Below, in pieces: positions 4,449 through 47,847 of a stretch of 64,000 nt of DNA. The DNA lies in the NCBI RefSeq assembly GCF_000469585.1, contig NZ_AWNK01000001.1, positions 731 to 64,730 on the forward strand, in the 5' to 3' direction. This stretch comes from Chrysiogenes arsenatis DSM 11915 (GTDB lineage Bacteria > Chrysiogenota > Chrysiogenetes > Chrysiogenales > Chrysiogenaceae). Numbering within the stretch: the stretch's first letter is position 1; each line of letters opens with the position of its first letter. The position numbers were made by a program, and so were the translations under genes. A model generated the notes under the pieces. That model saw nothing but the letters and a program-made list of their open reading frames with translations, ran no database searches and was not told where the DNA came from.

Positions 4449-4547
4449 AAACACCCTCCATGAAGACATGAAAAAACAGTATCACGTGCTTCATAAAAAG
4501 TGAAATGGAAAATTTCGTTACATTAAAAAATATAATAGAGGCGGTAA

Positions 4548-5213
4548 TTAAATAAATTTATTCGCTTTCCATACAACTTCAAAACAGTAGCAACCTTCAC
4601 CCTCTTCACTCGTTACTGGCAGCGATACCGATTTGCCATCAAGGTTCGTTGAAATAAGCAGAGAAAGCCCACCAGCATTTGTCACCCGTCCTAAAAATGG
4701 TGCACCATTATGGTAGGTCAATGCGGGAACGCCATCAAGCAGCGGAAAGTTCACACGACGATTCAATAATACTAAGTCGCCACGGCGTAAAAGTGGCTGG
4801 AAATCTTCACTGTTGATACGAACCCAAAAGCACGACTCAGCTGGTTTTTCAATCCCTTGCGTCATCAATTGCGGTACTGGGAAGAAATCAATCGCGGCAT
4901 TCGGTGAAGTATATGCTTCAGGTTGTGGAGAAAAGCCTTCAAAAACCGGCACGATTGCAAGATCAAGTCGCTCTTCAACTGGCAATTCCTTTTTTTCAAT
5001 TGGCAATTGCGGATCAAATAATGCCGCCAAGTTGACATTCAACGCATCCGCTAATCTTTCAAGAATAAGGATATTAAGCTTCCGCTTTCCAGTCTCAATT
5101 TGACGAATGTACGATCCTTCGATCCCAACAGCCAAACCCAACTTTTCAGATGAAAGACGTTTACTTTTACGGATGATCCGGATTTTGCGGCCAATAATTT
5201 CTGAAATGTTCAT
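4548..5213 (-). CDS. XRE-family regulator with S24/LexA-like C-terminal domain
   Basis: A 221-residue transcription factor. Residues about 5-60 form a Cro/CI-type helix-turn-helix (IGRKIRIIRKSKRLSSEKLG, then GIEGSYIRQIETGKRK). The C-terminal half (about 110-215) resembles an S24 peptidase/LexA dimerisation domain, with RRGDLVLLNRR matching the strand that carries the catalytic Ser in true members. No clear Ser-Lys dyad is visible, so it may only dimerise or sense. The ATG at 5213 has CAGGAGG upstream. The gene is divergent from ettA, and the shared 350-base region carries TGCAA/TTGCA repeats that could be its operator. It could be a phage-repressor relative, but no phage genes are nearby. Confidence 0.8.
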   Translation of the reverse strand: MNISEIIGRKIRIIRKSKRLSSEKLGLAVGIEGSYIRQIETGKRKLNILILERLADALNVNLAALFDPQLPIEKKELPVEERLDLAIVPVFEGFSPQPEAYTSPNAAIDFFPVPQLMTQGIEKPAESCFWVRINSEDFQPLLRRGDLVLLNRRVNFPLLDGVPALTYHNGAPFLGRVTNAGGLSLLISTNLDGKSVSLPVTSEEGEGCYCFEVVWKANKFI

Positions 5214-5560
5214 AAAACCTCCTGTAGACAATAACTTCAATGCTCACATTGCAATAATACTTGCCACTAGCGAAAATACTTTTACCGCAAAAACACCACA
5301 TATGCAACACAATTGCACAAAATAAACATAGCAATTAACACTATCAGTTGCACAATATAAGGACAAATAGGGATCTATCGTCACAATAAACCCAGCAAAA
5401 CACTTAATGTACAGCTTTTACTAGAATCGAAGTTCACCATGAAAATCAAAAGATATTACTTCAACATATCGCGTGCTACTTGCTATCCGGATAGAGCGTG
5501 GATATACTTCTGCCTCTTGGCGCTTCGTGCGGCAAAGCATTTCTGGCAGGAGTATACAGC
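5214..5560. promoter_or_regulatory. Divergent regulatory region with TTGCA repeats
   Basis: This 347-base AT-rich gap separates the XRE regulator from ettA and contains no convincing gene. It holds a palindrome TGCAA-N5-TTGCA (5303-5317) and further TTGCA-type half-sites: TTGCAATAAT (5249-5258), TTGCACAAAAT (5313-5323) and TTGCACAATAT (5348-5358). These are candidate binding sites for the XRE protein. This is inference from repetition and position only. Confidence 0.4.
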
Positions 5561-7234: not shown

Positions 7235-7277
7235 AAAAATTCACTCAACACAGTATCATCTTGCAAGGCTTATCAAT

Positions 7278-7296
7278 GGGGCGAGACACTCGCCCC
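7278..7296 (+). other. GC-rich hairpin between ettA and ruvB
   Basis: GGGGCGA and TCGCCCC form a 7-bp perfect stem with a 5-base loop, about 45 bases after the ettA stop. No T-run follows, so it is not a standard intrinsic terminator. It may protect the 3' end of the ettA transcript. Confidence 0.4.
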
Positions 7297-7355
7297 CTGT
7301 TGCACTTTGAAGCAGTTGCGATATTCCATAACTATCCATTTCAAAGGAGCACTGA

Positions 7356-8399
7356 GTGTCGCACGAAGAACGCCTTATCACCCCACAAACGCTCAGCGAT
7401 GACCCGCAGGAGTATTCGCTGCGGCCAACGCGATTACATGAATACATTGGTCAAGCGCGGGTGAAAGAAAACATGGAAGTGTTCATCAATGCTGCCAAAG
7501 GGCGCGATGAGTCACTTGACCATATCCTTTTTTCCGGCCCTCCAGGACTGGGAAAAACCACGATTGCTAACATTATTGCGCAGGAAATGGGGGTTAACAT
7601 CCGTTCTACGTCGGGGCCGGTGATTGAAAAATCAGCCGATCTGGCAGCGATTTTAACCAACCTACAAGCCGGCGACGTGCTCTTTATCGACGAAATTCAC
7701 CGTATGAGCACAGCCATTGAAGAGGTGCTCTATCCTGCGATGGAGGATTTTCAGCTCGATATCGTGATTGGTCAGGGGCCGGCAGCGCGCAGTATTAAAA
7801 TTGACCTGCCCCGCTTTACACTTATTGGCGCTACCACACGCGCAGGTTTACTGAGCGCGCCTTTTCGTGATCGTTTTGGCGTGCATAGTCGCTTGGAATT
7901 TTATTCAGCCGAAGAGTTGTTTGCGATTATTATCCGCTCAGCTCGGCTGTTGGCGATTCCGGTTGACGATGCTGGAGCAAAAGAGCTCGCACGCCGTTCG
8001 CGCGGCACACCGCGCATTGCAAATCGGTTACTGCGACGTGTGCGCGATTTTGCACAAATTGTTGGCCAAGGCGTTATTACCGAAGAAATTGCCCGGTATG
8101 CACTGGCAAAACTAGAAGTCGATAACGCTGGGCTTGATTATCTCGACCGTAAGCTTCTGCTCGCGCTTATTGAAAAATTTGACGGTGGCCCAGTCGGACT
8201 AGAGACGCTAGCGGCCTATGCCGCAGAAGAGAAAGGGACAATTGAAGATGTCTGCGAGCCGTATCTGATTCAGCAAGGACTGTTGCAGCGCACACCGCGT
8301 GGTCGCGTGGCGACGTTAGCGGCGTATCGCCATCTGGGAATTCCCTGCGATAAAACGCCAACAGCGCCGGCAGATCCGACGCTGTTTGACGAAAAATAA
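7356..8399 (+). CDS. ruvB: Holliday junction branch migration helicase RuvB
   Basis: RuvB (347 aa) is the hexameric AAA+ motor that, with RuvA, drives branch migration of Holliday junctions before RuvC resolution. The Walker A motif GPPGLGKTT, the Walker B segment LFIDEIHRM, the sensor region [19 protein letters not shown] and the C-terminal winged-helix segment (RTPRGRVAT) are intact. Translation starts at a GTG (7356) with AAAGGAG upstream. ruvA and ruvC are not adjacent. The 3' end converges on elbB with about 47 bases between. Confidence 0.97.
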
Positions 8400-8446
8400 G
8401 GGTGTGATATCTCTCTGACAAAAACCCGCAAAGGGGACACCCATTG

Positions 8447-9106
8447 CTACGCCAATCGCAAAAACTCGGCAACCATTTTTTCAACTCCAACAGCCACTTC
8501 GCCAACCGATTGGCCAAGCATGTACGCAGGTGTGGTGACGACTTTATGGGCGGTGTCAATGCTGACGCCGTCCACGGGAAGGGCTTGGTGTTTGGCACCA
8601 GTTTTTTCAATCTCGGCAGCCGTGCCTTCATCTGTGCCAATAGTAACGGTAACGCCAGATGAACCAAGCACTTTAGCCAGCAAAGCGGGAGCGATACAGA
8701 GCCCGCCGATAACCTTTCCCGCTGCCGCAAAGTCGCGTAGCACCCGCTCAATGTCGGGGTTGACGCTGCACAACGCTCCATCGACGGCGAAAGTGCAAAG
8801 ATTTTTTGCCACCCCAAATCCACCGGGAAAAATAATCCCATCAAACTGACTGGCATCGATAGTGGAAAGCTCCTGAACCGCGCCACGTGCAATACGCGCT
8901 GATTCAACTAACACATTGCGCGTTTCGCTCGTGACTTCCCCAGTCAGGTGATTGATGACATGCATCTGGTTGATGTTTGGGGCAGCGCATGTGACGCTTG
9001 CTCCACCGCGCTCAAGGGCAAGGAGTGTGAGAACGGCTTCTTGAATTTCGGCACCATCATAGACGCCGCAACCGGCAAGGACGACACAAATTTTCTTGTT
9101 AGCCAT
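8447..9106 (-). CDS. elbB: ElbB-type DJ-1/PfpI glyoxalase-like protein
   Basis: A 219-residue protein of the class I glutamine amidotransferase-like/DJ-1 superfamily, matching ElbB in length and start (KKICVVLAGCGVYDGAEIQE). The nucleophile elbow is seen as GGLCIAPALLAK with the conserved Cys, and GFGVAKNLCTFA is a second family motif. E. coli ElbB has weak glyoxalase activity; older names link it to isoprenoid synthesis. The ATG at 9106 with CAGGAGG is chosen over an upstream start. No functional partner is adjacent. Confidence 0.88.
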   Translation of the reverse strand: MANKKICVVLAGCGVYDGAEIQEAVLTLLALERGGASVTCAAPNINQMHVINHLTGEVTSETRNVLVESARIARGAVQELSTIDASQFDGIIFPGGFGVAKNLCTFAVDGALCSVNPDIERVLRDFAAAGKVIGGLCIAPALLAKVLGSSGVTVTIGTDEGTAAEIEKTGAKHQALPVDGVSIDTAHKVVTTPAYMLGQSVGEVAVGVEKMVAEFLRLA

Positions 9107-9159
9107 GAGTATACCTCCTGTTTTCTTGTTGGTTAGCGAATTACACACTGCCACCGCAA

Positions 9160-9627
9160 CTACTGCGCGGGTGAGACGGACTCAGCATTTTCTTTGGCGG
9201 CTTCCGCTTTTTTGCGTGCCTGATAGAGCTGCATAAAGTTGACACTCGGTAGAGTAATTACGCCATATTCACTACGAAGCGTAAGGTTTGACACCATTTC
9301 ACGGCTATAAGGAAGTAGTAGAGAAGGGCAGTTCACATTGAGGACTACCGCCATATCATCGGCATCATATTCTCCCTGTAGTGCAAAAATTCCAGAAATC
9401 ACCACTTCAAGGACAAAAGGTGCCGTTTTTTCTTCAGTAAAAACCAGTGAGGTCACAAGGCTCACCTTGTAACGATTTTCGTCGTCGAGTTTGAGATGCG
9501 AGGTGTTAAAATTCATCTGCATTTCTTGCTGTCCGGTAACATCTTTGAGCTGATAACGTGGACGTGTGCGGTAGTTAACCCCTTCCAGTAATGTTCCGAG
9601 AAGATGAATGCCTCCGAGTGAACTCAT
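9160..9627 (-). CDS. SecB-like protein-export chaperone
   Basis: A 155-residue protein with the beta-rich SecB fold. The segment CPSLLLPYSREMVSNLTLRS corresponds to the conserved SecB helix region (PYAREC in E. coli), followed by LPSVNFMQLYQ, which matches the APVNF motif. SecB keeps preproteins unfolded and delivers them to SecA; SecB-like forms also partner toxin-antitoxin systems. No toxin-antitoxin gene is adjacent, so a general or export role is more likely. The acidic/Ala-rich C-terminal tail lacks an obvious SecA-binding zinc motif. The ATG has AAAGGAG upstream. Confidence 0.75.
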   Translation of the reverse strand: MSSLGGIHLLGTLLEGVNYRTRPRYQLKDVTGQQEMQMNFNTSHLKLDDENRYKVSLVTSLVFTEEKTAPFVLEVVISGIFALQGEYDADDMAVVLNVNCPSLLLPYSREMVSNLTLRSEYGVITLPSVNFMQLYQARKKAEAAKENAESVSPAQ

Positions 9628-9692
9628 GCGATAGACTCCTTTGTGTAGTATGCAAGTAGAATGTCATAAAACTGTGAATATGCGTATTTTGA

Positions 9693-9995
9693 CTACTCGC
9701 GCGTCAATAACTGCGCACTGACAAGCCCGATGATAGTACGAATCTCTGGATTTGGTGAAAAAACATTCAGCGAATAAAACGTGTTTTTTCCGTCGCGACG
9801 CTCAATCAAATACCCTTCTTCACGCAATACTTTCAGGTGCGTGCTAATCGTAGGTTGACTGAGAGTAAATTCCCGCACCAAATCGCTGACACACCGTTCC
9901 CGTTGTTGCGACAATTTGGCAATAATTTGCAATCGTGTGGGATCACCGAGCGCCTTGTACATCTGAGCCATCGTCCGAACTGCTTTATCGTTCAT
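9693..9995 (-). CDS. ArsR-family winged-helix repressor
   Basis: About 100 residues with a typical ArsR/SmtB helix-turn-helix: KALGDPTRLQIIAKL, then CVSDLVREFTLSQPTISTHLKVLREEGYL and the beta-wing RRDGKNTFYSL. Members repress genes for metal, arsenic or redox stress and release DNA when their ligand binds. The ELCVCDL-type metal site is replaced by ERCVSDLV, with only one Cys, so metal sensing through the alpha-3 site is doubtful. The ATG at 9995 follows AAGGGGA; a TTG at 10010 is an alternative start. It lies downstream of the GAF protein with a short gap and may be co-transcribed. Confidence 0.85.
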   Translation of the reverse strand: MNDKAVRTMAQMYKALGDPTRLQIIAKLSQQRERCVSDLVREFTLSQPTISTHLKVLREEGYLIERRDGKNTFYSLNVFSPNPEIRTIIGLVSAQLLTRE

Positions 9996-10029
9996 TACTT
10001 TCCCCTTCAATATCCTCTATTAACGAGCA

Positions 10030-10926
10030 TTACCCCTTATCGCGTTTCAGCATCTGGCGCAGTTCGACAATTTCTTCGAGCAGTGATTGAATATCATCAC
10101 CCAACTCTGGATCAATCCCCGCATTGATATGGGCAGAAGCGCGCTGCACTCGAGGGATGAGTGAATTCACCCGTTGCTCAACCGCATCGGCCATGCCGTT
10201 CGGAACGAGGTTTGCCGGGTGACTTTCAATCAGTTGATTGATGTAATATGTGTGATCAAGGAAGTAGGAAACAAATTCTCCAAGAACATGGAAAATTCGC
10301 ATATCCCCTTCTGAAAAATAGCTTGTATTGGGATGAGAAAAATTCATTGCACCCAAAAGTTCATCGCCGGAAATAAGAGGAACCGAAACCAATGAACCGA
10401 CCATCACGCGTGCGTCGCGCCGAGGCGCAAAGCGCTTATCTTTTTCTACATCGGTTACAAAGGCAATTTCGCGATATTGCGCTACCCAACCAGTCACCCC
10501 TTCGCCGAAAGCAAACGTCGGAACTTCATCGCCAGACCCTTCAACCGCTTTGGCAACACGATCTTCACGTCGATACGTGGCGACTAAGCGCAAGCGACCT
10601 TGGTCGGGCAGAAATATCGATCCATTTTGGAAATCCATTTCACGACCAATAACCTGAAGAGCGCATTGGCAGGCGTCAGCCAGAGGCATAGGGTGATCGT
10701 AGAGTTGCAATAAACGAATAGAGCACGACAGAGCATTGACCATTTTATCATAATTGATCCGCAGGTCATTGAGCGAGCTGTACGCAATCCGCTTTTCCAT
10801 CCCCATGAAATAAATTTTTTGCACCAACAGGCGGGTCTCTTTGTCGGCAATTAACGCCAATTCGCTTTTGGAAACTTTGTTGTCTAAGACTTGGCGGATC
10901 AGATGGATAAGTTCGCTATTTTCCAT
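10030..10926 (-). CDS. GAF-domain signalling protein
   Basis: A 298-residue cytoplasmic protein with a helical N-terminus and a central GAF domain (about residues 75-215, including FGEGVTGWVAQYREIAFV and LISGDELLGAMNFSHPNTSYFSEGD). The C-terminus is helical and charged. GAF domains bind small ligands or cofactors, and no output domain such as kinase or GGDEF is fused here. Its start overlaps the stop of the upstream HDOD gene in a TAATG arrangement, so the two are translationally coupled and probably work together as a signal-sensing unit. Confidence 0.8.
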   Translation of the reverse strand: MENSELIHLIRQVLDNKVSKSELALIADKETRLLVQKIYFMGMEKRIAYSSLNDLRINYDKMVNALSCSIRLLQLYDHPMPLADACQCALQVIGREMDFQNGSIFLPDQGRLRLVATYRREDRVAKAVEGSGDEVPTFAFGEGVTGWVAQYREIAFVTDVEKDKRFAPRRDARVMVGSLVSVPLISGDELLGAMNFSHPNTSYFSEGDMRIFHVLGEFVSYFLDHTYYINQLIESHPANLVPNGMADAVEQRVNSLIPRVQRASAHINAGIDPELGDDIQSLLEEIVELRQMLKRDKG

Positions 10927-11786
10927 TATATAAGCTCCGATACAAGTGAAGTTACCTTTTCTGCCAAATTGCGGTGTGCTTCAATGAGACCAGCAGAAAA
11001 AGGCTCGTCGATACCGAGGAGGTCTAGCGCAACGGGATCTGGCGACCAAACAATTGTCGTCTGATAGAGGCTGGAGGCGATTTGGTGTGCAATGTCATTT
11101 GACAGTGCCGTTACCGCAATCAGGCTGGCATATCGACTGAATTCTTTTGGAATCTGACTTACCGTATGATGATAAGTAATGGCGGCCTGAATCCCAGCGG
11201 GAAGTTTCCACTTCGTGGCAATATACGAACCGGCCTCAGCGTGGTCGACACCGAATTCAGCCAGCTCAAGCCGGCATAACTCCTCTTCGCTTCCCTTCGA
11301 TTCGGCAAGCATCTGCGAGTACTTTTCACGATCAACCAAAAACATCCCCATCTTGCCAATATCGTGCAGAATGCCGGCGACATAACCAAGGTCAGCAAAA
11401 GGTATCGCCAGCCTAGCGCCAATCGATTTCCCTAACACCGCGACACACAATGAATGCTCCCAAAAACTTTTCAGCCGTGTTTCGAGTTCTGGGTCGTTAC
11501 TAATTACCTGTCCGGCAAAGGTACCCAGTACAAGCCCACTCAGCGAGTCCATACCAATGCGCATAATCGCATTTTGAACCGTCGTACATTCGGAACCGCG
11601 AGCATAAAAAGCACTATTGGCCATGCCAACCACTTTGCCGCTTAGGTTGGGATCAGTAGAAATAGAATTTGCAATTTTCTGGAAATTGGCTTTCGGGTCG
11701 CCCAACACTTCAATAATTTCGGCAATTACCCCTGACGGACTGGGGAAGGAATCGGTAACCTGAATAATCTCTGATAATCTACTCAT
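10926..11786 (-). CDS. HDOD-domain protein
   Basis: A 286-residue protein made of an HDOD domain, a degenerate relative of HD phosphohydrolases. The start FPSPSGVIAEIIEVL and the core ISTDPNLSGKVVGMANSAFY are typical. The segment AGILHDIGKMGMFL keeps an HD-like motif (His-Asp), followed by FGVDHAEAGSYIATKWKLP. HDOD proteins act in signalling, often with GAF, GGDEF or chemotaxis proteins. It overlaps the TPR gene upstream by 8 bases and the GAF gene downstream by 1 base. The ATG at 11786 has GGGAG upstream. Confidence 0.85.
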   Translation of the reverse strand: MSRLSEIIQVTDSFPSPSGVIAEIIEVLGDPKANFQKIANSISTDPNLSGKVVGMANSAFYARGSECTTVQNAIMRIGMDSLSGLVLGTFAGQVISNDPELETRLKSFWEHSLCVAVLGKSIGARLAIPFADLGYVAGILHDIGKMGMFLVDREKYSQMLAESKGSEEELCRLELAEFGVDHAEAGSYIATKWKLPAGIQAAITYHHTVSQIPKEFSRYASLIAVTALSNDIAHQIASSLYQTTIVWSPDPVALDLLGIDEPFSAGLIEAHRNLAEKVTSLVSELI

Positions 11787-30052: not shown

Positions 30053-30583
30053 ATGGCGACTCCTGAACCATCGGCTTTAGCTTCGGATGATCCGCGCCTG
30101 AAAATCGTCGAGCGCACTATCAAAAAATTCTCTCACCAGCCTGATGCTCTGATCGAAGTACTCCATACCGCGCAGGAGGCGTACGGATTCCTGTCTGAAG
30201 CGTTGCTGGCGTACGTTGCCGAGCAGCTCAAGCTCCCCGAAAGCCACGTCCTTGGCGTGGCAACGTTTTACCATTTTTTTTCTCTCAAACCCAAAGGGGA
30301 GCGCAGTTGCATCGTTTGTACGGGCACGGCGTGTTACGTCAAAGGGGCGGGTGAAATCGTGAGCGCCATTGAGGAGCAGTACCAGGTCGCGCCGGGGCAA
30401 ACGTCGGCGGATGGCAAGCTGAGCCTCGGTACAGCGCGCTGTCTGGGCAATTGCAGTATGGCACCGATGCTTACGCTTGACGATGCCGTCATTGGCCGCG
30501 AAAGCGCCGCGCATGTACTGGAGCGGATAGACGCACGGCTCAGTGAAGCGAACTCATCAGCGGTAAACGAGGTGCACACATGA
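30053..30583 (+). CDS. hoxE: Bidirectional hydrogenase diaphorase subunit HoxE
   Basis: HoxE (176 aa) is a NuoE-like [2Fe-2S] subunit of the cytoplasmic NAD(P)-linked hydrogenase. It passes electrons between HoxFU and other carriers. The cluster ligands are visible as CTGTAC (C-x4-C) and CLGNC (C-x3-C), with the motif [16 protein letters not shown] before them. GAGG precedes the ATG. It opens hoxEFU-YHW, and its stop overlaps the start of hoxF by 4 bases. Confidence 0.93.
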
Positions 30584-32304
30584 ATCGCGCCGACTTACAG
30601 CAACTCGCCGAAACGGTTCAGGAACAACTGGCCGCGCTTGACTGGCATATTCTCGTCTGTTTTAGCACCCCGTGTTTAGCTTCTGGTGCCGCTGCCATCA
30701 AAGAGGCGCTGGACGCCGCCTTGCAAACAGCGGGACTTCCCGCAACCGTCGCCGTAACCGCCACGGGATGTGTCGGCCCGTGCAGCCGTGGGCCGCTCGT
30801 GACGGTGAAACAGCGTGGGCGTGCCGATGTGCTGTACGAAAAAGTAACGCCAGAATTTGTGACCCAGATTGTCGATGCACTCAGTCAGACTCAGCTACCA
30901 ACAGCACAGCAAGTCCCCGCCGATCTCCCCTTTTTTCAAAAACAGAAACGGATTGTGCTCGAAAATAGCGGCAAGATTGATCCAGAAAATATCGAACAAG
31001 CTATCGCTGCCGGTGCTTATAGCGCACTTGCCAAAGCGATTGCCGAAATGACGCCAGACGAAGTGTGTGAAGAAATTGTGAAAAGCGGCCTGCGCGGGCG
31101 TGGTGGCGGAGGCTATTCGACCGGCCTCAAATGGCAACTCGTCCGCAAAGCTCCGGGCAATAAAAAGTTTATCGTTGCGAATGGTGACGAGGGCGACCCC
31201 GGCGCCTACATGGATCGCACGCTGATGGAATCTGACCCGCATCGTATCCTGGAAGGGATGGCGCTGGCCGGATATGCCGTTGGTGCCGAACAGGGCTATG
31301 TCTACGTGCGCGGCGAATATCCGATTGCCGCCAAGCGGCTGCAAAAAGCTATCAAGGATGCCGAACGTGCCGGTCTGCTTGGTGGCCGCGTACTGGACGG
31401 AAGTTTTAGCTTTCGTGTCGATGTCCGTATCGGCGCCGGCGCCTTTGTGTGCGGCGAAGAAACGGCGCTCATGGCATCGATCATGGGATTACGTGGCCAA
31501 CCTATGCCACGCCCACCGTATCCGGCGCAAAAAGGATTGTGGGGCTTGCCAACGCTCCTGAATAACGTCGAAACCTTTGGCAATATCGCCCCGATTATTC
31601 GCGATGGTGCTGAGGCCTACGCGGCCATTGGTACACCGAAGTCGCGCGGCACCAAGATTTTTGCCCTGTGCGGCGAAGTCGAAAACAATGGCCTTATCGA
31701 AGTGCCAATGGGAATTTCGCTCCGCGAAATCGTGTACGATATCGGCGGCGGTGTGTCCAATAATCAGCAGTTCAAGGCCGCACAAACCGGCGGCCCCAGC
31801 GGTGGCTGCATCCCGCAAGAGCATCTTGATACACCAGTGGATTATGAAAGTCTCCAAGCACTTGGTTCGATTATGGGTTCCGGCGGCCTCATTGTCATGG
31901 GCGATAAAACGTGCATGGTCGATGTGGCAAAATTCTTTATGGAGTTTTGCCTTGATGAAAGTTGCGGCAAATGCACCCCATGCCGAGCCGGAACGGCACA
32001 ACTCTACCGTCTGCTGAATTTGATTTCGAATGGCAGCGCCACCGAAAAAGAGCTGCTTCAGCTCGAAGAGCTGTGCGTCATGGTGCGCGATACCTCGCTC
32101 TGCGGTCTGGGAATGAGCGCGCCCAATCCGGTGTTAAGTACACTCCATTACTTCCGAGATGAATACCTGGCACATATCCGTGATCGTCATTGTCTGGCGG
32201 GCGTTTGTCGCATCAGCGAAGTGCCGCGTCTGGATATGGCAGATGAATTACTGCGCCGTATCGCGGCTGGCAGACTCGATGGGGAGGCGCTCTCATGTCC
32301 GTAA
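30580..32304 (+). CDS. hoxF: Bidirectional hydrogenase diaphorase subunit HoxF
   Basis: HoxF (574 aa) oxidises or reduces NAD(H) through FMN. It begins with a thioredoxin-like [2Fe-2S] domain (Cys27, Cys32, Cys64, Cys68). The NuoF core has the FMN/NAD sites [16 protein letters not shown] and [17 protein letters not shown], and the [4Fe-4S] ligands in [10 protein letters not shown] plus the later Cys in SLCGLG. The length fits HoxF with the fused N-terminal domain. It overlaps hoxE by 4 and hoxU by 10 bases. Confidence 0.95.
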
Positions 32305-33014
32305 TTACGCTGACCATCAACGGCGAACTCTGTAGCGCCCGTGCTGGACAAACCCTGCTGGCGGTGATCCGCGAGCATGCCATTGTATTGCCGACCTTGT
32401 GTCAACTGGATGGGATCGAGGCGTGGGGCGGATGTCGCCTGTGCGTTATCGAACTCAGCACGAATCCTCGCCCGCAACCGGCCTGCACCACGTATGTGCA
32501 GGAGGGAATGGTGGTGACGACGGACAGCGAGAAGTTGCATACCTATCGGCGCATGATCGTCGAACTGCTCTTGGCAGAGCGCAATCACACCTGTGCCGTA
32601 TGTGTTTCGAGTGGCAACTGCGAACTCCAGAGTGTGGCGGCGCAATTGGGGATTGATCACGTCCGCTTTGATTATCTTTTCCCGAAACTCGCGATGGATA
32701 CCACGCACGACCGCTATGGTCTGGATCAAAACCGCTGCATCCTCTGCACCCGTTGTGTGCGCGTCTGCCGCTCGGTAGAAGGAGCCTGCACGTGGGATAT
32801 CGGCGGACGTGGCTTTACTAGCCGCCTGATTGCCGATCTTGATCGTCCGTGGGGCAAAAGTACCTCGTGTACCGATTGCGGCAAGTGTGTCCAGCTTTGC
32901 CCAACGGGGGCGCTTTTCCGACGTGGAGCGACGGTGGCGGAAATGGTCAAAGAAAAATCGTTTCTGAAGCGGATTCTGGCGAATCGTGCTCATAGTGGAG
33001 GACGAGATGAATAA
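32295..33014 (+). CDS. hoxU: Bidirectional hydrogenase diaphorase subunit HoxU
   Basis: HoxU (239 aa) is the NuoG-like iron-sulfur wire between HoxF and HoxY. A plant-type [2Fe-2S] domain comes first ([15 protein letters not shown], then ACTTYV). Next is the His-Cys cluster motif [15 protein letters not shown], followed by two [4Fe-4S] motifs, [11 protein letters not shown] and [12 protein letters not shown]. It starts inside the end of hoxF. A 276-base non-coding repeat separates it from hoxY, which is unusual for this operon. Confidence 0.95.
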
Positions 33015-33290
33015 GAATACTTTTCTATGTTTTTCCCTCGGTAAGCTTTTGCCCCATTGGCGCGAAGCCTGCTCGGCAAGACCCCGCACGGGGCGGCCAC
33101 AGGAGGTGCCAAAGTCCGGCAGTATGTCCATGGATGGGCATTATGCCGGATCTCCGAGGCAGGCGAGTAAGCCAAAGGGAGAGCAAAAGCGCGAGGGCAC
33201 TTTACTTTGCTTCTTTCTTTTGGTGTCAAAAGAAAGAAGAATAAAACGTATTTTTCTTAATGCGAACTATCGCGTCGCGCGGGTGATGCG
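33015..33290. repeat. Non-coding repeat-like element inside the hox operon
   Basis: This 276-base insertion between hoxU and hoxY has no credible gene; both strands give only low-complexity frames. It carries a 13-bp perfect inverted repeat (33210-33222 with 33227-33239, 4-base loop) and GC-rich inverted motifs such as CCCCG/CGGGG and CCGGCA/TGCCGG. The arrangement looks like a dispersed intergenic repeat that has landed in the operon. A second full copy is not present in the window. Confidence 0.6.
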
Positions 33291-33842
33291 ATGAGTACCA
33301 ATTCACCAAAACTCCGACTGGCAACCATTTGGTTTGGCGGATGTTCCGGCTGCCACATGAGTTTTCTCGATATCCATGAAAAACTGATAGACCTTGCCGA
33401 GCAGGTTGATGTCGTCTACAGCCCACTCGCGGATACCAAGGAGTTCCCGCACGATGTCGATATTACGCTGGCGGAAGGGGCGATTACCAATGTTGAAAAT
33501 CTGGAATTACTCAAGCAAGTGCGCGAACGGACAAAAACGTTGGTGAGCTTCGGCGACTGTGCGATTACAGGCAACGTCACAAGCCTGCGGAATTTTTTCC
33601 CTGTCACGGAACTGCTCAACGCCGTCTATCACGCCGGCCCCGGCAAAGCGCCCCATGGCGCCGAAGCGGTCAAAGAGCTTCCGGCACTGCTGCCTAAGGT
33701 GCTGCCGATTCATCATATTACCGATGTCGATGTTTTTTTGCCCGGCTGTCCGCCTGATCCCGAACGGATATGGAGTGCTGTCAGTGCGCTTCTTCAGGGG
33801 AATCCCGTCGAGCTCACACCATCACAACGGACATTCGGGTAA
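33291..33842 (+). CDS. hoxY: Bidirectional [NiFe] hydrogenase small subunit HoxY
   Basis: HoxY (183 aa) carries the proximal [4Fe-4S] cluster next to the NiFe site. Ligand motifs are [10 protein letters not shown] near the N-terminus, FGDCAITGN in the middle and [12 protein letters not shown] near the C-terminus. The protein is short, without a Tat signal or the distal-cluster domain of uptake hydrogenases, as expected for the cytoplasmic Hox type. hoxH follows after 10 bases. Confidence 0.95.
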
Positions 33843-33852
33843 GGGGGGCGGT

Positions 33853-35280
33853 ATGAGTCAGAAAATTACGATTGAGCCAGTAACTCGCATTGAAGGTCAT
33901 GCCAAAATAACTATTTTGCTGGATGATGCCGGTACAGTAAGCGACGCTCGCTTCCACGTTACCGAATTTCGCGGCTTTGAAAAATTTTGTATTGGGCGCA
34001 GTTTCCGCGAAATGCCAGGAATAACCGCCCGCATTTGCGGAATTTGTCCGGTCAGTCACGCGCTGGCTTCGTCAAAAGCGGGCGATGCTATCTTTGGCGT
34101 CCAGATTCCACCAGCCGCGGCACTGCTACGCCGTGTGATGAATTGGGCACAGATAGTGCAAAGTCATGCCCTGAGCTTCTTTCATCTCAGTGGTCCCGAT
34201 TTGATTTTGGGTATGGAAAGCGACCCCGCGAAGCGCAACATCTTTGGTTTGATGCAATCGCATCCAGAGATTGCCCGTAATGGCATTACGCTGCGAAAGT
34301 TTGGGCAAGAGGTGATCCGCATTCTCGGCGAACGGAGTGTCCACCCGACATGGTCGGTACCGGGTGGTGTGCGTGAACCGCTCAGTGCTGCGGGGCGCGA
34401 GCAGATCGCACAGATGCTTCCCGAAGCCTTCACCATTGCCCGCCAAGCACTCAACCTCGGTGAAGAGGCGCTGGAGCGTCATGCGAAAGAGCAACACGTG
34501 TACGGAAATTTCCCCAGCCTTTTCCTTGGCCTTGTCGGAAAAGAGAATGCACTGGAACATTATGATGGCGATTTGCGCCTGATTGACGCGCAAGGGCGGC
34601 AGCTTGAAAAAATTGACCCTGCCCGCTTTGGCGATATCATCAGCGAAGGGGAAGCGGAATGGACCTATCTCAAATTTCCTTTCTACCGTGAAGGGGGCTT
34701 TCAGGAGAAGGGGATGTACCGCGTGGGGCCGCTCGCGCGTCTGAACATTGCCGATTTCTCGTCTACGCCACTTGCCGACCGCGAGTTGCGCCGCTTCCGG
34801 CAGTGGGGCGAATGGGGGCAGCCCGTTGTGGCGGGGTTCCTGTATCATCAGGCACGTTTAATCGAAATTTTACACGCCCTAGAGTCTATCGAACAGGCGC
34901 TGGCCAGCCCACATATTTGCGATACCCATGTGCGCAGCCGCGCGCGGGTCAATCAGCTCACCGGGGTGGGCGTCACCGAAGCACCGCGCGGCACACTGTT
35001 TCACCACTACGAAGTCACCGATGACGGCATTTTGACCAAGGTAAACCTTGTTATTGCAACGGGGCAGAATAATCTGGCAATGAACCGGACGGTAAAGCAG
35101 ATTGCCAGTGCCTATCTTAACGGAACGACGATCACGGAAGGGCTTTTGAACCGCATCGAACATGGCATCCGCATTTACGATCCATGCTTGTCGTGCTCGA
35201 CTCACGCGGCGGGTCAAATGCCGCTGTTGGTCGAGCTGTATAGTCCAGATGGTGTGTTACTCGATCGGTGCGAGCGCTAA
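33853..35280 (+). CDS. hoxH: Bidirectional [NiFe] hydrogenase large subunit HoxH
   Basis: HoxH (475 aa) holds the NiFe active site. The N-terminal ligands are in [14 protein letters not shown] and the C-terminal pair in DPCLSCSTH; a short tail after His ([16 protein letters not shown] and more) is the piece removed by HoxW once nickel is inserted. The family start is [10 protein letters not shown]. The ATG at 33853 with AAGGGGGG is clear; a longer frame opening inside hoxY should be ignored. Function is reversible H2 oxidation with NAD(P). Confidence 0.96.
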
Positions 35281-35283
35281 GTC

Positions 35284-35730
35284 GTGATTTTATTTATTGG
35301 CTACGGAAATACGTTGCGGCGCGACGATGGTGCCGGGCGGGAGTTTGTAAGCCGCATTGCGGCACGCTTCCCGCAAAATATGGTGCGCGTGCTGGAATGT
35401 CACCAGTTGATGCCGGAGCTTGCGCTGGACATTGCATCGCCTGATATCACAGCAGTCTACTTTGTTGATGCTTCGGTCGCGACTATGCAGGGGAGAATCC
35501 GCACGATAGAACGAGCATCCTTGCCACCAAGCACCGGACATCACTTGACGCCATCATTATTACTTGATTTGTCATATGTGCTGTATCAGGTTGCGGTGCC
35601 CGCTTGGCTTATAGAGATTCCAGCATTCGACCTTGATTGTGGCGAAGGACTCAGCGCACCGTGCGAGCTGGAAATGTCAACTGTAGTGCAGAATGTGACA
35701 GAATATTTGGAATTTGCAAACGTTCCATAG
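35284..35730 (+). CDS. hoxW: Hydrogenase maturation endopeptidase HoxW
   Basis: A 148-residue HyaD/HybD/HoxW-type protease that trims the C-terminus of HoxH after nickel loading. The start ILFIGYGNTLRRDDGAG holds the conserved GN and DDG(A/V)G motif. VYFVDASV carries the second acidic residue, and STGHHLTPSLLL holds the His. Translation begins at a GTG 3 bases after the hoxH stop. Confidence 0.92.
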   Translation: MILFIGYGNTLRRDDGAGREFVSRIAARFPQNMVRVLECHQLMPELALDIASPDITAVYFVDASVATMQGRIRTIERASLPPSTGHHLTPSLLLDLSYVLYQVAVPAWLIEIPAFDLDCGEGLSAPCELEMSTVVQNVTEYLEFANVP

Positions 35731-39227: not shown

Positions 39228-39347
39228 TCAAGACGGGGATAGAAAGCAGGCCATAATTCCCATGGCAAGTGCATACCAAATAATGACTCCAGTGGTGATG
39301 CCAAATATTAACTGACCCCGAACAGTAGCCTTTTTTTGCTGCAGCAT
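39228..39347 (-). CDS. 39-residue single-pass membrane peptide upstream of the cytochrome
   Basis: A small gene with a strong GGAAGGAGG ribosome site. The peptide starts MLQQKKATVRGQ, followed by a hydrophobic helix of about 22 residues (LIFGITTGVIIWYALAMGIM) and the tail ACFLSPS. It lies directly after the sigma-54 promoter and 32 bases before the cytochrome, so it is the first gene of that transcript. Tiny proteins of this kind often assemble with or anchor respiratory complexes. I know of no named family for it. Confidence 0.7.
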   Translation of the reverse strand: MLQQKKATVRGQLIFGITTGVIIWYALAMGIMACFLSPS

Positions 39348-39380: not shown

Positions 39381-39396
39381 AGCAAGGAGGATGCCA
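39381..39396 (-). promoter_or_regulatory. Sigma-54 (-24/-12) promoter for the cytochrome operon
   Basis: On the minus strand the site reads TGGCAT-CCTCC-TTGCT, matching the sigma-54 consensus TGGCAY-N5-TTGCW with exactly 10 bases between the -24 GG and the -12 GC. Transcription would start near 39371, some 24 bases before the small membrane peptide. Confidence 0.82.
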
Positions 39397-39458
39397 ACAG
39401 CTTTTTTCACTATAATGGTTTGTGGGACAACTACTTATGCGAATCGCTGACGAGAATG

Positions 39459-39476
39459 TGCGTCATTCATGACGCA
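39459..39476 (-). promoter_or_regulatory. Palindromic enhancer site 1 for the NtrC-type activator
   Basis: TGCGTCAT-TC-ATGACGCA is a perfect 8-bp-arm palindrome centred about 80 bases upstream of the sigma-54 promoter. It is a likely binding site for the activator encoded at 39571-40947. Confidence 0.7.
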
Positions 39477-39532
39477 GAGAGCGACTACCACACTGAACAG
39501 CACAAACGACTATCTTGTTATGGCAAAGGAAA

Positions 39533-39566
39533 TTACGGCATGTGTCAATGATGACGCATGCCGTAA
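39533..39566 (-). promoter_or_regulatory. Enhancer site 2 inside a long inverted repeat
   Basis: The sequence TGTGTCAA-TG-ATGACGCA (39541-39558) repeats enhancer site 1 with two changes, 82 bases further upstream. It lies inside a 10-bp perfect inverted repeat (TTACGGCATG with CATGCCGTAA), 5 bases after the stop of the regulator gene. The hairpin could also end the regulator transcript, though no clear T-run follows. Confidence 0.6.
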
Positions 39567-39570
39567 GCAG

Positions 39571-40947
39571 CTATTCGCGAAAACGCGCTGTGTCGAAATC
39601 GTAGCGCCGCACAAGGCGTTGCAGATTCGCACGGTCAAGCCCCGCGCGCACTGCAGCGCGCGTGACATTCCCGCCCGAGTCGCGAAAAAGAGCATTGAGG
39701 TAGTGAGAGTGGAACGAGTTGAGCGCATACTCTTTCGCTTCCTGATAGGTCGAGGTGGCCTGAAAAGCGCCACAATCATGATTGGACGATGATGAGGCTG
39801 GACGACAAGTAATCTCTTGCGGCAGTGTTTCGTAGGTGATGAGAGGAGACCCAACAAAGACACAAAGACGCTCAACCAGATTTTCTAATTCACGAATATT
39901 GCCCGGCCAGTCATAGCCCATCAGTGCATCCAACGCTGGACTTTCGATGGTTTTCCGTCCTCGCAGAAAGTGCTCCAAAAGCAGCGGAATGTCATCACGA
40001 CGTTCGCGCAATGGCGGGATTGAGAGGGGGAAAACATTAATACGGTAGAAAAGATCTTCGCGAAAGAGGTTGTCCTGTACCAGCGTTGAAAGAACTCTAC
40101 TGGTAGCGGTAATAACGCGGACATTGACCTCTATTTCCGCTGTATCTCCAAGGCGGCGGATTTTTTTCTCCTGCAACACACGGAGAAGCTTCGCCTGCAC
40201 GGCAGCCGAAGTATCGGCAATTTCATCCAGAAAAAGCGTTCCCCCTTCCGCATGTTGAATGAGCCCTTGGCGCGACTCAGTGGCGCCAGTAAATGAACCT
40301 TTGGCATGTCCAAAAAGTTCGCTTTCCAGCAGTGTATCAGGGAGTGCACTACAATTAACGGCCACAAAATTCTTCCGCGCCCGATGGCTGCTATAATGGA
40401 TCGCTCGCGCCACCAGCTCTTTCCCCGTGCCGCTTTCCCCTTGGATAGAAACAGTAGCGTGACTATCGGCGATTTTTTCAATAAGCCCAAAAAGCCCTTG
40501 CATGGCCGGTGATTGCCCAACAATGCTTTGAAAGGAATAGCGACGGATCAACTCCTGCCGCAGTTGCTGATTCTCGGCACGTAATACCCGTTTTTCGATA
40601 ACGCGGCGGATGGCATGGATAACGGTATCGTTTTCAAATGGCTTAACAATATAGTCGTACGCGCCGTTGCGCATAGCATCTACCGCGTGTTCAATGGTGG
40701 CAAATGCCGTCATGATAATCACGTCCGCTTGCGGTTGTACGCTACGAACCTGCTGTAAGATATCGCTGCCCGTCGCTTCGGGCATGTAAAAATCAGACAG
40801 CACGACATCAAATATATCGGTTTCTAAAATCGCCAACGCCTCTATCGATCGACTACAGGTGCGCACATCATGGTTTTCTCGCACAAGTAACCGCTCCAAC
40901 AAACGGCACATTGCGGCATCATCATCAATTACGAAAATACGTGCCAT
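39571..40947 (-). CDS. NtrC-type sigma-54-dependent response regulator
   Basis: A 458-residue activator. The receiver domain has DDDAAMCRLL, the phospho-acceptor in VVLSDFYMPE and the Lys in YIVKPFENDT. The AAA+ domain (about 140-370) has Walker A GESGTGKELVARAIH, the sigma-54 contact loop around GAFTGA (here GSFTGATESRQG) and a Walker B near GGTLFLDEIADTS. A Fis-type helix-turn-helix ends the protein (NVTRAAVRAGLDRANLQRLVRR). It overlaps the kinase gene upstream. Its probable target is the sigma-54 promoter immediately downstream. Confidence 0.93.
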   Translation of the reverse strand: MARIFVIDDDAAMCRLLERLLVRENHDVRTCSRSIEALAILETDIFDVVLSDFYMPEATGSDILQQVRSVQPQADVIIMTAFATIEHAVDAMRNGAYDYIVKPFENDTVIHAIRRVIEKRVLRAENQQLRQELIRRYSFQSIVGQSPAMQGLFGLIEKIADSHATVSIQGESGTGKELVARAIHYSSHRARKNFVAVNCSALPDTLLESELFGHAKGSFTGATESRQGLIQHAEGGTLFLDEIADTSAAVQAKLLRVLQEKKIRRLGDTAEIEVNVRVITATSRVLSTLVQDNLFREDLFYRINVFPLSIPPLRERRDDIPLLLEHFLRGRKTIESPALDALMGYDWPGNIRELENLVERLCVFVGSPLITYETLPQEITCRPASSSSNHDCGAFQATSTYQEAKEYALNSFHSHYLNALFRDSGGNVTRAAVRAGLDRANLQRLVRRYDFDTARFRE

Positions 40948-42530
40948 TCTGATTCCTTTCTGCAAGAGGGGTAACACGGAAGGGTGATACACACCGTGGT
41001 GCCTTTGCCATGTTCGCTCTCTATCTGAATATCGCCACCATGTTCACGAATGATACCGTACGAGATCGCTAGCCCTAATCCAGTTCCCTCTTTTTTCGTG
41101 GTAAAAAATGGTTGAAAAACTTTTTCTAGGACTTCTGGCGCAATGCCCAACCCATTATCGGCAATACAAATGACAACGGTATCATCTTCGCATCTGGTTG
41201 ATAATGCCAATTCGCCTTGGCCATGAATGGCGTCAATCGCGTTCAAGATGATATTGAGCAACACTTGTTTGATTTGCATCGCATCGGCCGATACCTCTGG
41301 CACGTCTGTTGCATACTCTGTCTGGATGCGAATGTGTTTCGTTGCCGTCTGATACCCTACCAACACCAGTGTTTCCTGCAGCAGGGCGTTGACGCTCACA
41401 ACAGCAACCGCATTCGACGGCGTGCGTGAAAATTGCAAAAGGCCTTGCACGATGCGACGACATCGCTGGGATTCTTGCTCAATAATAGCCATATCATTAT
41501 AGAATGGATGATCGGGCGTCATTTCATCAAGTATAACGCGACAAAATCCGCCAATAGTGTTGAGCGGGGTGCTGATTTCATGGGAAACCCCCGCGGCGAG
41601 AGTGCCAACGGCGGCCAGTGTTTCTGCGCGTACCATAAGCGTTTGCGCTTCTTTCAGGGCGCGTGTGGCGTCTTCAATCCGTCGTTCAAGGCTCTCGTTC
41701 AGCTCTTGCAACGAACCAAGCAGTTGATCTTTTTCAGCATGAATGGTTTCCAGACGCGACGCCATAAGATTAAACGATTCGGCCAAGAATGCTATTTCAT
41801 CACTGGCTTGTACGTGAACCCGCTGGGTAAAGTCGCCACGGCTTATAGTTTGCGTGGCACGGGTGAATGCTTCTATTGGGCGACTGATGCTGCGAATGAC
41901 GAGGACAAATATGGCAACAGAAAGGAAAAATGTCACCACAACAACACTCCAGATCGTGATGCGCGAACGGGTTACTTCGCTGCGGCTGGTACGGTTTATC
42001 TCCACGCGCATGGCGTCAGCGGCATGATGAGCGGTCTGCAAGTGCTCTATGAGGGTTTGCGAGCGTTCGCTGGCAAGCTGTTCGTGGAGGTGTCGTTGCT
42101 CTTCGTCAATGGCAGTTATGATCGTGCTGATATCCTGTTTGTACAGCTCAATCGTGCGTACCATGTCGCCTAAAATCCCCTCCACGGAGACGATCCGCTG
42201 GTTGACTTCAGCATGACATTGCATGCAGGTAATGTCGCCTGAATGGCTTTTGTATTGCTTCTCGATAAATTCGTGATGTTTTTCGAATGCTTCGACGTAG
42301 GCCACAAGATCATTGATACTGTGCGAATACCCGGCCTGATGGCGGTACATTTCTGCCTGGGCACTACGCAGAAGATACAGCATCTCCGTATATCGGCTAA
42401 TGATAGCGTTCTGCTCATTGGTAATCTGCTGATTGACAAACAGGGTATCAAGACTGCGAAGCACGATAAATGCAGCAAATAAAAAGAGCATCATGGTTAT
42501 GCCAAGCGCAGTAAAAAGTTTTTTTCTCAT
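40929..42530 (-). CDS. Membrane histidine kinase with haem-c motif in the sensor domain
   Basis: A 533-residue kinase. The first membrane helix is about residues 8-28 and the second about 190-215, and between them lies a periplasmic helical domain. That domain contains ITCMQCHAEVNQ, an exact CXXCH motif (Cys102, Cys105, His106), so a covalent haem c is likely. After the second helix come a HAMP domain (IEAFTRATQTISRGDFTQRV), a coiled coil, the H box (GVSHEISTPLNTI) and an HATPase domain (ADNGLGI, GTGLGLAISYGI). The start overlaps the end of the PhnD-like gene. It is the probable partner of the sigma-54 regulator and of the binding protein. Confidence 0.9.
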   Translation of the reverse strand: MRKKLFTALGITMMLFLFAAFIVLRSLDTLFVNQQITNEQNAIISRYTEMLYLLRSAQAEMYRHQAGYSHSINDLVAYVEAFEKHHEFIEKQYKSHSGDITCMQCHAEVNQRIVSVEGILGDMVRTIELYKQDISTIITAIDEEQRHLHEQLASERSQTLIEHLQTAHHAADAMRVEINRTSRSEVTRSRITIWSVVVVTFFLSVAIFVLVIRSISRPIEAFTRATQTISRGDFTQRVHVQASDEIAFLAESFNLMASRLETIHAEKDQLLGSLQELNESLERRIEDATRALKEAQTLMVRAETLAAVGTLAAGVSHEISTPLNTIGGFCRVILDEMTPDHPFYNDMAIIEQESQRCRRIVQGLLQFSRTPSNAVAVVSVNALLQETLVLVGYQTATKHIRIQTEYATDVPEVSADAMQIKQVLLNIILNAIDAIHGQGELALSTRCEDDTVVICIADNGLGIAPEVLEKVFQPFFTTKKEGTGLGLAISYGIIREHGGDIQIESEHGKGTTVCITLPCYPSCRKESEWHVFS

Positions 42531-43474
42531 GGTTTCGCTATGGAATCAATGCGTGTGAGCGGTTCATTAAAAAGTTCCATCTCGCGCATAATATAGCGCA
42601 GAGCGTCATATTCGTGATCTTCGGTGCGGATAAAGCGCTCTGCTCCAAGTGCTTTTAAGGCTTGTTGTCCAGCATCTGAGAGGTGCATGTCCAAAAGTGC
42701 CGTCTCGATTTGTTGCTTCAGTGCGGTGTCAAGATCGTTGCGAACGGCGAGGGTGTTGGTTGGCACCGATATTTCCCCAGAGGCTATGATCGTAAGAGAA
42801 GCGGCAATATCGGCATTCTGCTGCATCATGCGATTGACAATTGACTCTTTGGCGGCACCGATATCAGCATGTTTGGAATGGACGGCTAGCACCGTCGCGT
42901 CATGGCTGCCAAGGAAAAGAATCCGTTCAAAATAGGCGTGGTAATCGCCACTATAGCTCTGATGCAGGTACCAACGCGGAAAGAGATAGCCAGCAGTGTT
43001 CGCATGATGCACTAACGCAATACGCTTTCCAACCCACGTGGTGACATCGCTCGTCACACCTGTTTCAGGGCGCGTAAAGATCACACCACGGTATTCTGCG
43101 CCATATTCGGTATCTACTGGGCGCGCTATTGGCTCTATAAGCCCTTGCTGATAGGTCAGCGCATAGATGTAGCTGCCGAAAAATGCCGCGTCAATAATGT
43201 CTTCTTCCAACTCTTTGGCAATCCCGACGTGACTGTAACTGTCGAGAAGTTTTATTTTTACCGGTCGGCGCAAAGCTTGTGTCAGGTATTCGCCAAGCTG
43301 ATGATAACGCTTGCGCTGCTCGAAAACGTTTTGTTCTGGCAGAATACCGATTGTGAATGGCTTCCCAGCATAAAGCGTCTGAATTGGTGGTGGTTCTGGC
43401 AGCGCAGGCTGTTGTTCGCAGCCTGCGAGAAGGAATACTGCGAATAGTACCAGTAAGCTTTTTTTCAAAGACAT
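42527..43474 (-). CDS. PhnD-like periplasmic substrate-binding lipoprotein
   Basis: A 315-residue lipoprotein with a lipobox LLAGC at Cys19. The mature part is a PhnD/phosphonate-type solute-binding protein (FTIGILPEQNVFEQRKRYHQL, then IIDAAFFGSYIYALTYQQGL, and SKHADIGAAKESIVNRMM). No ABC permease or ATPase is adjacent. It is instead fused by overlap to a histidine kinase and a sigma-54 regulator, the gene order of the arsenite sensor AioX-AioS-AioR. It most likely captures an oxyanion and signals to the kinase. The ligand is not shown by the sequence. Confidence 0.86.
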   Translation of the reverse strand: MSLKKSLLVLFAVFLLAGCEQQPALPEPPPIQTLYAGKPFTIGILPEQNVFEQRKRYHQLGEYLTQALRRPVKIKLLDSYSHVGIAKELEEDIIDAAFFGSYIYALTYQQGLIEPIARPVDTEYGAEYRGVIFTRPETGVTSDVTTWVGKRIALVHHANTAGYLFPRWYLHQSYSGDYHAYFERILFLGSHDATVLAVHSKHADIGAAKESIVNRMMQQNADIAASLTIIASGEISVPTNTLAVRNDLDTALKQQIETALLDMHLSDAGQQALKALGAERFIRTEDHEYDALRYIMREMELFNEPLTRIDSIAKP

Positions 43475-43619
43475 GGTCACTTCCATTGCTTGAGCGCGAT
43501 GCGTTAATGAACGTGCATGCGTTATAATCGTTATCCTAGAGAGTTGTCGAGAATTCTCTGCAGTTGATAATACTCAACACTTTCGCTATCATACAAAAAA
43601 TTGTATCGGGAGGTGCATT

Positions 43620-43712
43620 ATGCGTAAAAGTATACTTGTCGGAGCATTAGCGGTGCTGGCGATTATCCTTTCCGTTCCTGCTTTATTAGGAAAATTTCTT
43701 GGCATTTTATAA
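43620..43712 (+). CDS. 30-residue hydrophobic peptide upstream of the ferredoxin
   Basis: A very small frame with a strong GGGAGG site. The peptide begins MRKSILVGALAVLAIILSV and ends GKFLGIL, with one probable membrane helix. It lies 65 bases before the ferredoxin gene, divergent from the PhnD-like gene. It parallels the 39-residue peptide ahead of the cytochrome, which supports it being real. No family is known to me. Confidence 0.5.
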   Translation: MRKSILVGALAVLAIILSVPALLGKFLGIL

Positions 43713-43776: not shown

Positions 43777-44784
43777 GTGTTTAACCCTAAAGAAATGGTT
43801 ATTGTACAGACGGTGGCGCGGATAAGTGAAACATTGCGCTGCCACACGTCTCGGTGCTTGCGCTCGCGTTTTTTCAAAAATAACTGTCAACTTTGTAAAG
43901 ATGTTTGTCCGGTAGATGCGGTTACACTGCAATCCTCAGTATCGATTGATTACGACCGCTGCACGCAGTGCATGCTCTGTGTTGGCGCGTGTCCTAATGG
44001 AGCGATTGAATCAAAATTTGCGCCATTCCATCTGCTGGTAAAAAAACTCAACGATGTTCCTACGCCAGTATTGGGGTGTTCGGCAATTGCCGATGAAAAG
44101 CGGTGGCATGCCGATGTGCCATGCCTTGGAATTTTTTCGGCGGAACACTTTATTGCCTTTAGTGTGTTGGTACGCGGTGTCATTCAGATCAACCTCACTC
44201 GCTGCCACAATTGTCGTAACGGTTCGATGGTATCGGCTCTTCAACAACGGTTCGCCGAAGCGATCCACATCTATCCGCCAGTGGCTAAAAAAGTAGTGCT
44301 CGTAACCGAGACGCATGCTTTGCAATTTGCACCAAAAATGATGGGGCGTCGCGCTATGTTTGGGTTTCTCCGTGAAAAGGCGACCGAAGAAGCAGCACGA
44401 GTGTTTCATCTTGTCTCAGCCGAAGAGTCAAAGTCCACTTCGTACGGAGTGAAGGCATTGCCAAGTCGTCGTCAGTTACTCAACCATGTAACACGCGATT
44501 TCCCTGTCCCAGAGCTTACACGGTTTGGCTATCCCTTCGTTGCCGTCAGCAATACCTGTGTTCTTTGCCCAGCGTGCAGTGCTATTTGTCCGACAGGTGC
44601 GCTGGTGCTGCATGATACTCAGGAAGAAGGGAAGGTGCTGAAATTTGACCGCTCGCTCTGCACCGGCTGTGGACTGTGCGCCGAATTCTGCCCCAAGAAA
44701 GCGATTGGCGTGTGCAGTCATCTCGCGGGTGACGCCCCTGCCACTGTTTTTGAAATATCAATCTTGAAACGCGAAGAGGAGTAA
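43777..44784 (+). CDS. Multi-cluster 4Fe-4S ferredoxin
   Basis: A 335-residue soluble protein with ferredoxin-type modules at both ends: CQLCKDVCP and CTQCMLCVGACPNGA near the start, CVLCPACSAICPTGA and CTGCGLCAEFCPKKA near the end, so about four [4Fe-4S] clusters. The middle domain has CSAIADEKRW and RCHNCRNG, with further Cys that may bind a cofactor. No signal peptide is visible, so it should act in the cytoplasm. Translation seems to begin at a GTG (43777) with AAAGGAG about 10 bases upstream. It is divergent from the sensor operon and may feed electrons to the same respiratory process. Confidence 0.8.
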   Translation: MFNPKEMVIVQTVARISETLRCHTSRCLRSRFFKNNCQLCKDVCPVDAVTLQSSVSIDYDRCTQCMLCVGACPNGAIESKFAPFHLLVKKLNDVPTPVLGCSAIADEKRWHADVPCLGIFSAEHFIAFSVLVRGVIQINLTRCHNCRNGSMVSALQQRFAEAIHIYPPVAKKVVLVTETHALQFAPKMMGRRAMFGFLREKATEEAARVFHLVSAEESKSTSYGVKALPSRRQLLNHVTRDFPVPELTRFGYPFVAVSNTCVLCPACSAICPTGALVLHDTQEEGKVLKFDRSLCTGCGLCAEFCPKKAIGVCSHLAGDAPATVFEISILKREEE

Positions 44785-47592: not shown

Positions 47593-47847
47593 ATGGGAAG
47601 AGCACAGCTAGCACCAGATGGCACATATGTCGGAGGCGAACCGCACCTTGCGCCTAACGGGAAGTTCGTTGGCGGCAAGCCCCAGCTTGCACCTAATGGG
47701 CAGTTCGTCGGAGGAAATCCCCGACTCGCTCCCGATGGAACCTATGTTGGGGGCAAGCCACACCTTGCTCCTGATGGCACCTATGTTGGAGGGAAACCGA
47801 TTCTTGCCCCAAACGGGAAGTATGTCGGCGATGGATCGACCGACTAA
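47593..47847 (+). CDS. Protein of six 13-residue repeats
   Basis: An 84-residue protein made almost wholly of six repeats with the pattern P-x-LAP-(D/N)-G-x-(Y/F)-VGG-x, such as PHLAPDGTYVGGK. The repeats are encoded by 39-base units that also match at DNA level. AAAGGAG precedes the ATG. There is no signal peptide or membrane segment. The function is unknown. It follows the attC-like site and may be part of the same mobile insertion. Confidence 0.7.
   Translation: MGRAQLAPDGTYVGGEPHLAPNGKFVGGKPQLAPNGQFVGGNPRLAPDGTYVGGKPHLAPDGTYVGGKPILAPNGKYVGDGSTD

Follow-up and report, generated by a model that had tools for sequence, protein, structure and literature searches.

The AioXSR/aioBA system is composed of a PhnD-like periplasmic binding protein, a histidine kinase and a response regulator, and its target operon lies behind an RpoN promoter, which in NT-26 reads TGGCACAACGATTGCA (PMC6011840, PMC5335332). 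The same X-S-R gene set is found in the ArrXSR/arrAB system of the arsenate-respiring Chrysiogenes arsenatis (PMC5908839; locus L124), the organism from which arrX has been cloned (PMC5908839); on its contig C4 a locus matches PDB 6x6b, ArrX, identically over 254 encoded residues. The enhancer sites of the NtrC family are dimeric palindromes that precede a -24/-12 promoter by roughly 100-200 bases, and in Geobacter multiheme cytochrome genes are already known to fall within the RpoN regulon (PMC2725144).

In the 64,000 nucleotide stretch of C. arsenatis DNA analysed here (the window), the genes for a PhnD-like lipoprotein, a sensor kinase and an NtrC-type regulator are followed on the minus strand by an intergenic region, a 39 amino acid ORF and the gene of a hexaheme cytochrome. 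P0003 (X; 42527-43486, minus strand) is a PhnD-like periplasmic lipoprotein of 319 amino acids (Pfam Phosphonate-bd, 2.5e-47), is related by sequence to the PtxB, ArrX and AioX structures and is presumed to be the ligand-binding input of the circuit; its sole cysteine is Cys23 of the lipobox. P0002 (S; 40929-42530, minus strand) is a 533 amino acid sensor histidine kinase with HAMP, HisKA and HATPase_c domains. Between its two membrane spans it carries a single CxxCH haem-c motif (CMQCH), from which haem binding may be predicted, and C102, C105 and H106 of this motif are invariant in the four related kinases compared. P0001 (R; 39571-40992, minus strand), of up to 473 amino acids, is an NtrC-type response regulator and sigma-54 activator with the Pfam domains Response_reg (3e-25), Sigma54_activat (1.4e-68) and AAA_lid_14. 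Its C-terminal helix-turn-helix gives no separate Pfam match and is near-identical in an alignment with the regulator of Desulfurispirillum indicum, while the loop motif is GSFTGA in P0001 and GAFTGA in the D. indicum protein. The first gene of the target operon is the small ORF (39228-39347, minus strand), with one likely membrane helix and no Pfam match; it is followed by P0004 (37735-39195, minus strand), a c-type cytochrome of 486 amino acids with six CxxCH motifs, studied in a 15-sequence alignment and presumed to be the product regulated by the switch.

The target of AioXSR is a molybdoenzyme, whereas here it is the hexaheme cytochrome, and the kinase of the present locus, in distinction to that of AioXSR, carries a haem-c motif. 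AioX has Cys106 in its ligand pocket, while P0003 is without a pocket cysteine; the AioR site GTTN10AAC is found in neither of the two intergenic regions (C. arsenatis and D. indicum), and no molybdoenzyme operon (aioBA, arxA, arrAB) is adjacent, the neighbours being the small ORF and the cytochrome. On these three grounds the locus is not AioXSR. Nor is it the ArrXSR of C. arsenatis, since ArrR ends, by its sequence, in a LuxR-like helix-turn-helix, whereas P0001 is of the NtrC type; ArrX and P0003 are 27% identical. Compared with the known NtrC-family sites and with Geobacter, the palindrome described below is new in sequence and appears local and dedicated, and in distinction to NtrC-family sites one of its two copies overlaps the 3' hairpin of the activator gene.

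A sigma-54 promoter of the -24/-12 type, TGGCATCCTCCTTGCT, is predicted on the minus strand at 39382-39397, with G at 39383 and C at 39382 in the -12 element and transcription starting at about 39370. The ATG of the small ORF, preceded by GGAAGGAGG, lies at 39347, 35 bases past the -12 C. An earlier note on this DNA had placed a sigma-54 site before the first downstream gene, which it took to be the cytochrome; the site is read at 39397-39382, at a sensible spacing and at most one base from where it had been put, but the gene which comes first is the 39 amino acid membrane-protein ORF. The strict sigma-54 pattern has 21 matches genome-wide, against 2 for the reversed control, so that most such sites should be real, and rpoN is present both in C. 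arsenatis (PF04552, E 5.4e-55) and in D. indicum. That the GG-N10-GC match is due to chance and the operon transcribed from another promoter is most improbable: a weak sigma-70-like match does exist, though on the opposite strand, but the excess of strict matches over the control, the suitable distance from a strong ribosome-binding site and the retention of the site in register in D. indicum all argue for the sigma-54 promoter. An IHF site is not evident between enhancer and promoter, where the best matches have 2-3 mismatches.

Upstream of this promoter are two candidate upstream activating sites of 18 bases, exactly 82 bases apart and centred on positions -97.5 and -179.5 relative to the predicted start. 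The proximal site (39459-39476) is the perfect palindrome TGCGTCATTCATGACGCA (TGCGTCAT-N2-ATGACGCA); the distal site (39541-39558), which reads TGTGTCAATGATGACGCA on the plus strand, is imperfect, with two changes, and is located just past the stop of the NtrC-type activator gene. One perfect and one twice-changed copy, 82 bases apart beside the end of a sigma-54 activator gene, is what had been described earlier, and the coordinates agree to within one base. Perfect inverted repeats of this size are alone not rare (9 in the window versus 5.3 +/- 2.7 in shuffles), but an inverted repeat accompanied by a second near-copy within the same 221 bases was seen in none of 2000 shuffles. Within the 2,825,161-base genome, TGCGTCATNNATGACGCA occurs with up to two mismatches in these two places only, so that the circuit looks local and dedicated. 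The genome-wide search returned 12 matches in total, the remaining ten with three mismatches, and as the reversed control pattern also gave 12 there is no wider enrichment. Among 30 strict sigma-54 sites examined in the two genomes a single one, the TGGCATCCTCCTTGCT site, has the palindrome upstream, and a wider regulon was found neither by the palindrome search nor at the strict sigma-54 sites.

The orthologous locus was compared in one genome, that of D. indicum S5 (G002), which belongs to the sister genus. The X-S-R genes stand there in the same tandem order, and the gene order of the locus, the promoter, the small ORF and two cores of the form GTCA-N4-TGAC are all kept: CGCTCCTGAGTCATTTTTGACCCAGGAGCG at the regulator stop is followed by CAGGTCAGATCTGACGCA, by TGGCAATTCGTTTGCT, by a 29 amino acid ORF with one helix and by the cytochrome. 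Absence of the palindromes from orthologous loci had been named in the earlier note as the observation that would speak against it; at this locus (n=1) both cores are present. The promoter TGGCAATTCGTTTGCT aligns with TGGCATCCTCCTTGCT and has one mismatch to the strict sigma-54 pattern, and a global alignment of the two intergenic regions brings the proximal site and the promoter into register unaided. The proximal centre is at -96.5 in D. indicum versus -97.5 in C. arsenatis, the distal centre at -217.5 versus -179.5. Two cores in the D. indicum intergenic region were obtained in 2 of 20,000 shuffles, an equally good best match (up to three mismatches) in 1 of 5,000, and from the genome frequency of the core (76 cores) the chance that one lies no more than a base away from where it is expected is about 8e-5; all of these are post hoc tests on a region already seen, but the core itself was derived from C. 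arsenatis. The regulators of the two species are 62% identical, and LDRANLQRL-RRY is kept in the recognition region of the helix-turn-helix. Judged from the matching sites at near-equal distance in the sister genus, the switch is very likely real, and its kind is well known.

The cytochrome family provides a control. Fifteen homologues, 53-75% identical to P0004, were compared over 450 bases upstream (301 bases only in L026, where the contig begins). The GTCA-N4-TGAC core is present in only two of the fifteen upstream regions, those of the two loci with a P0001-type regulator, and a sigma-54 site in three, the third being L081, a MAG contig labelled Ramlibacter, in which the cytochrome is directly preceded by the C-terminal portion of another NtrC-type gene, and an inverted repeat, AGGTGTCAT-N9-ATGACACCT, lies just past the stop of that gene. 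The remaining twelve loci have no adjoining NtrC-type gene and carry neither core nor sigma-54 site upstream, so that motif and promoter track the regulator rather than the cytochrome. Palindromes of this size fit many dimeric regulators, and the two sites might accordingly bind an unrelated one, for example of the CRP/FNR or GntR type, instead of the adjacent NtrC-type protein. We consider this very unlikely, as the motif accompanies the P0001-type gene and is missing where relatives of the cytochrome neighbour two-component genes of other kinds, as a global regulator is hardly to be expected for a motif without any further copy at up to two mismatches, and as the distance between palindrome and promoter fits sigma-54 enhancers. 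Since each genome has, besides this regulator gene, about 13 more genes for strong sigma-54 activators, we infer binding of P0001 itself to the palindromes from adjacency and co-occurrence. At a further locus (L100) one core overlaps the promoter region at -31, which was judged to be chance.

Two-component genes lie beside or near the cytochrome in 14 of the 15 aligned loci, L026 being cut off. The regulators beside it are of the winged-helix type in L027 (by Pfam) and in L034, L074 and L075 (by similarity), OmpR-like in L076-L080 and LuxR-like in L028 and L030 (both by eye). Across L027, L028, L030, L033, L034 and L074-L081 the kind varies by lineage, including NtrC-type XSR, LuxR-like XSR, a winged-helix pair and an OmpR-like pair. 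Such differing partners suggest that it pays to make the cytochrome only if a particular substrate is available in the periplasm. Downstream of the cytochrome, L030 (Anaerobacillus, 4286-11483) encodes an iron-sulphur protein together with NrfD, and L027 (Desulfuromonadales MAG, 6409-11710) a decaheme cytochrome together with an MtrB/PioB porin; these neighbours suggest an electron-transfer or reductase role and hint at electron export. A phmmer search of P0004 against the PDB gave short or weak matches only, and the AlphaFold2 model of the cytochrome, made from 15 sequences, is poor (mean pLDDT 49.6). No second copy of the cytochrome was found in 298 genomes around the Ramlibacter MAG.

Two further genomes were considered. 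A relative of the kinase in G197 lacks an adjacent regulator, and no orthologous promoter was gained from it. In the unrelated genome G230 (L056, 666-6867) the genes of a haem-motif kinase and an NtrC-type regulator stand ahead of a sigma-54-like site, CGGCACTCCGTTTGCA, which in turn precedes a cytochrome with nine CxxCH motifs; since this is a different multiheme cytochrome, the locus was rejected as a further orthologous promoter and is regarded as an analogous circuit.

The distal palindrome makes up the apex of a hairpin of 34 bases (39533-39566) where the regulator gene ends; the earlier note, correct as to the position of the proposed enhancer site, had overlooked this hairpin. Its predicted RNA fold has -21.8 kcal/mol on the minus and -24.4 kcal/mol on the plus strand (z -5.6 and -6.0), and its D. 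indicum counterpart reaches similar values (z -5.8 and -6.7). The proximal palindrome alone might be the activator site, the distal copy being merely a 3'-end hairpin, a terminator or mRNA stabiliser, which resembles it by descent or chance. The location within a strong hairpin in both species speaks for this, as does the distance from distal site to promoter, which is not conserved between them. NtrC-type activators, on the other hand, usually have paired sites. Moreover, the outer stems of the two species share no clear sequence and yet both pair, while the GTCA-N4-TGAC core stays (n=2 sequences), as would be expected if DNA binding maintained the core. Neither hairpin has a T-tract and the terminator scan made no call on the window hairpin, so that "terminator" is a guess. 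On balance a role as hairpin alone is rather unlikely, and the distal copy is best taken as a second activator site. More speculatively, it could be both a DNA site for the activator and the RNA tip of the activator's own 3' hairpin, so that binding could feed back on the regulator message by changing its read-through or its stability, while the haem-motif kinase may join redox state with oxyanion binding; we regard this combination as distinctly unlikely.

The sequence comparisons make it highly probable that the locus is a dedicated three-component, sigma-54-dependent switch for the small protein and the hexaheme cytochrome, AioXSR-like in its parts and in its presumed manner of working. Of the complete, self-contained circuit which had been proposed, the regulator, the sites and the promoter stand, but its extent was drawn too narrowly, as the PhnD-like lipoprotein and the haem-motif kinase also belong to it. 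A periplasmic ligand, probably an oxyanion, would be bound by P0003, and the ligand-bound lipoprotein, either alone or jointly with a redox input at the haem of P0002, would activate the kinase, which in turn would phosphorylate P0001. Phosphorylated P0001 would bind both palindromes as dimers and form an active AAA+ ring, which may loop to the promoter and open the complex of RNA polymerase and sigma-54, so that the small protein and the cytochrome would be made only with their substrate present. The locus offers a concrete set of regulator, sites and promoter for a deep-branching lineage with little mapped regulation, and an inducible handle on this hexaheme cytochrome family; the ligand of P0003, once found, could reveal the substrate of the cytochrome. 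New in detail is the distal site inside a hairpin in both species; the haem motif of the kinase is the second noteworthy feature.

Other features of the window lie around this locus. Divergent from the PhnD-like gene, a ferredoxin-like protein is encoded at 43777-44784, 48% identical to one adjoining arrAB in D. indicum (L125, 15539-16534). Also divergent and upstream of the PhnD-like gene, at about 43500-43660, is a possible 30 amino acid ORF with one helix (MRKSILVGALAVLAIILSVPALLGKFLGIL), preceded by a good ribosome-binding site. At 47593-47847 an 84 amino acid ORF is built from repeats of the LAPDGTYVGGKP type, and the run of genes at 30053-35730 resembles, by reading only, an NAD-linked hydrogenase cluster, with genes for diaphorase subunits, for the small and the large subunit and for a maturation protease.
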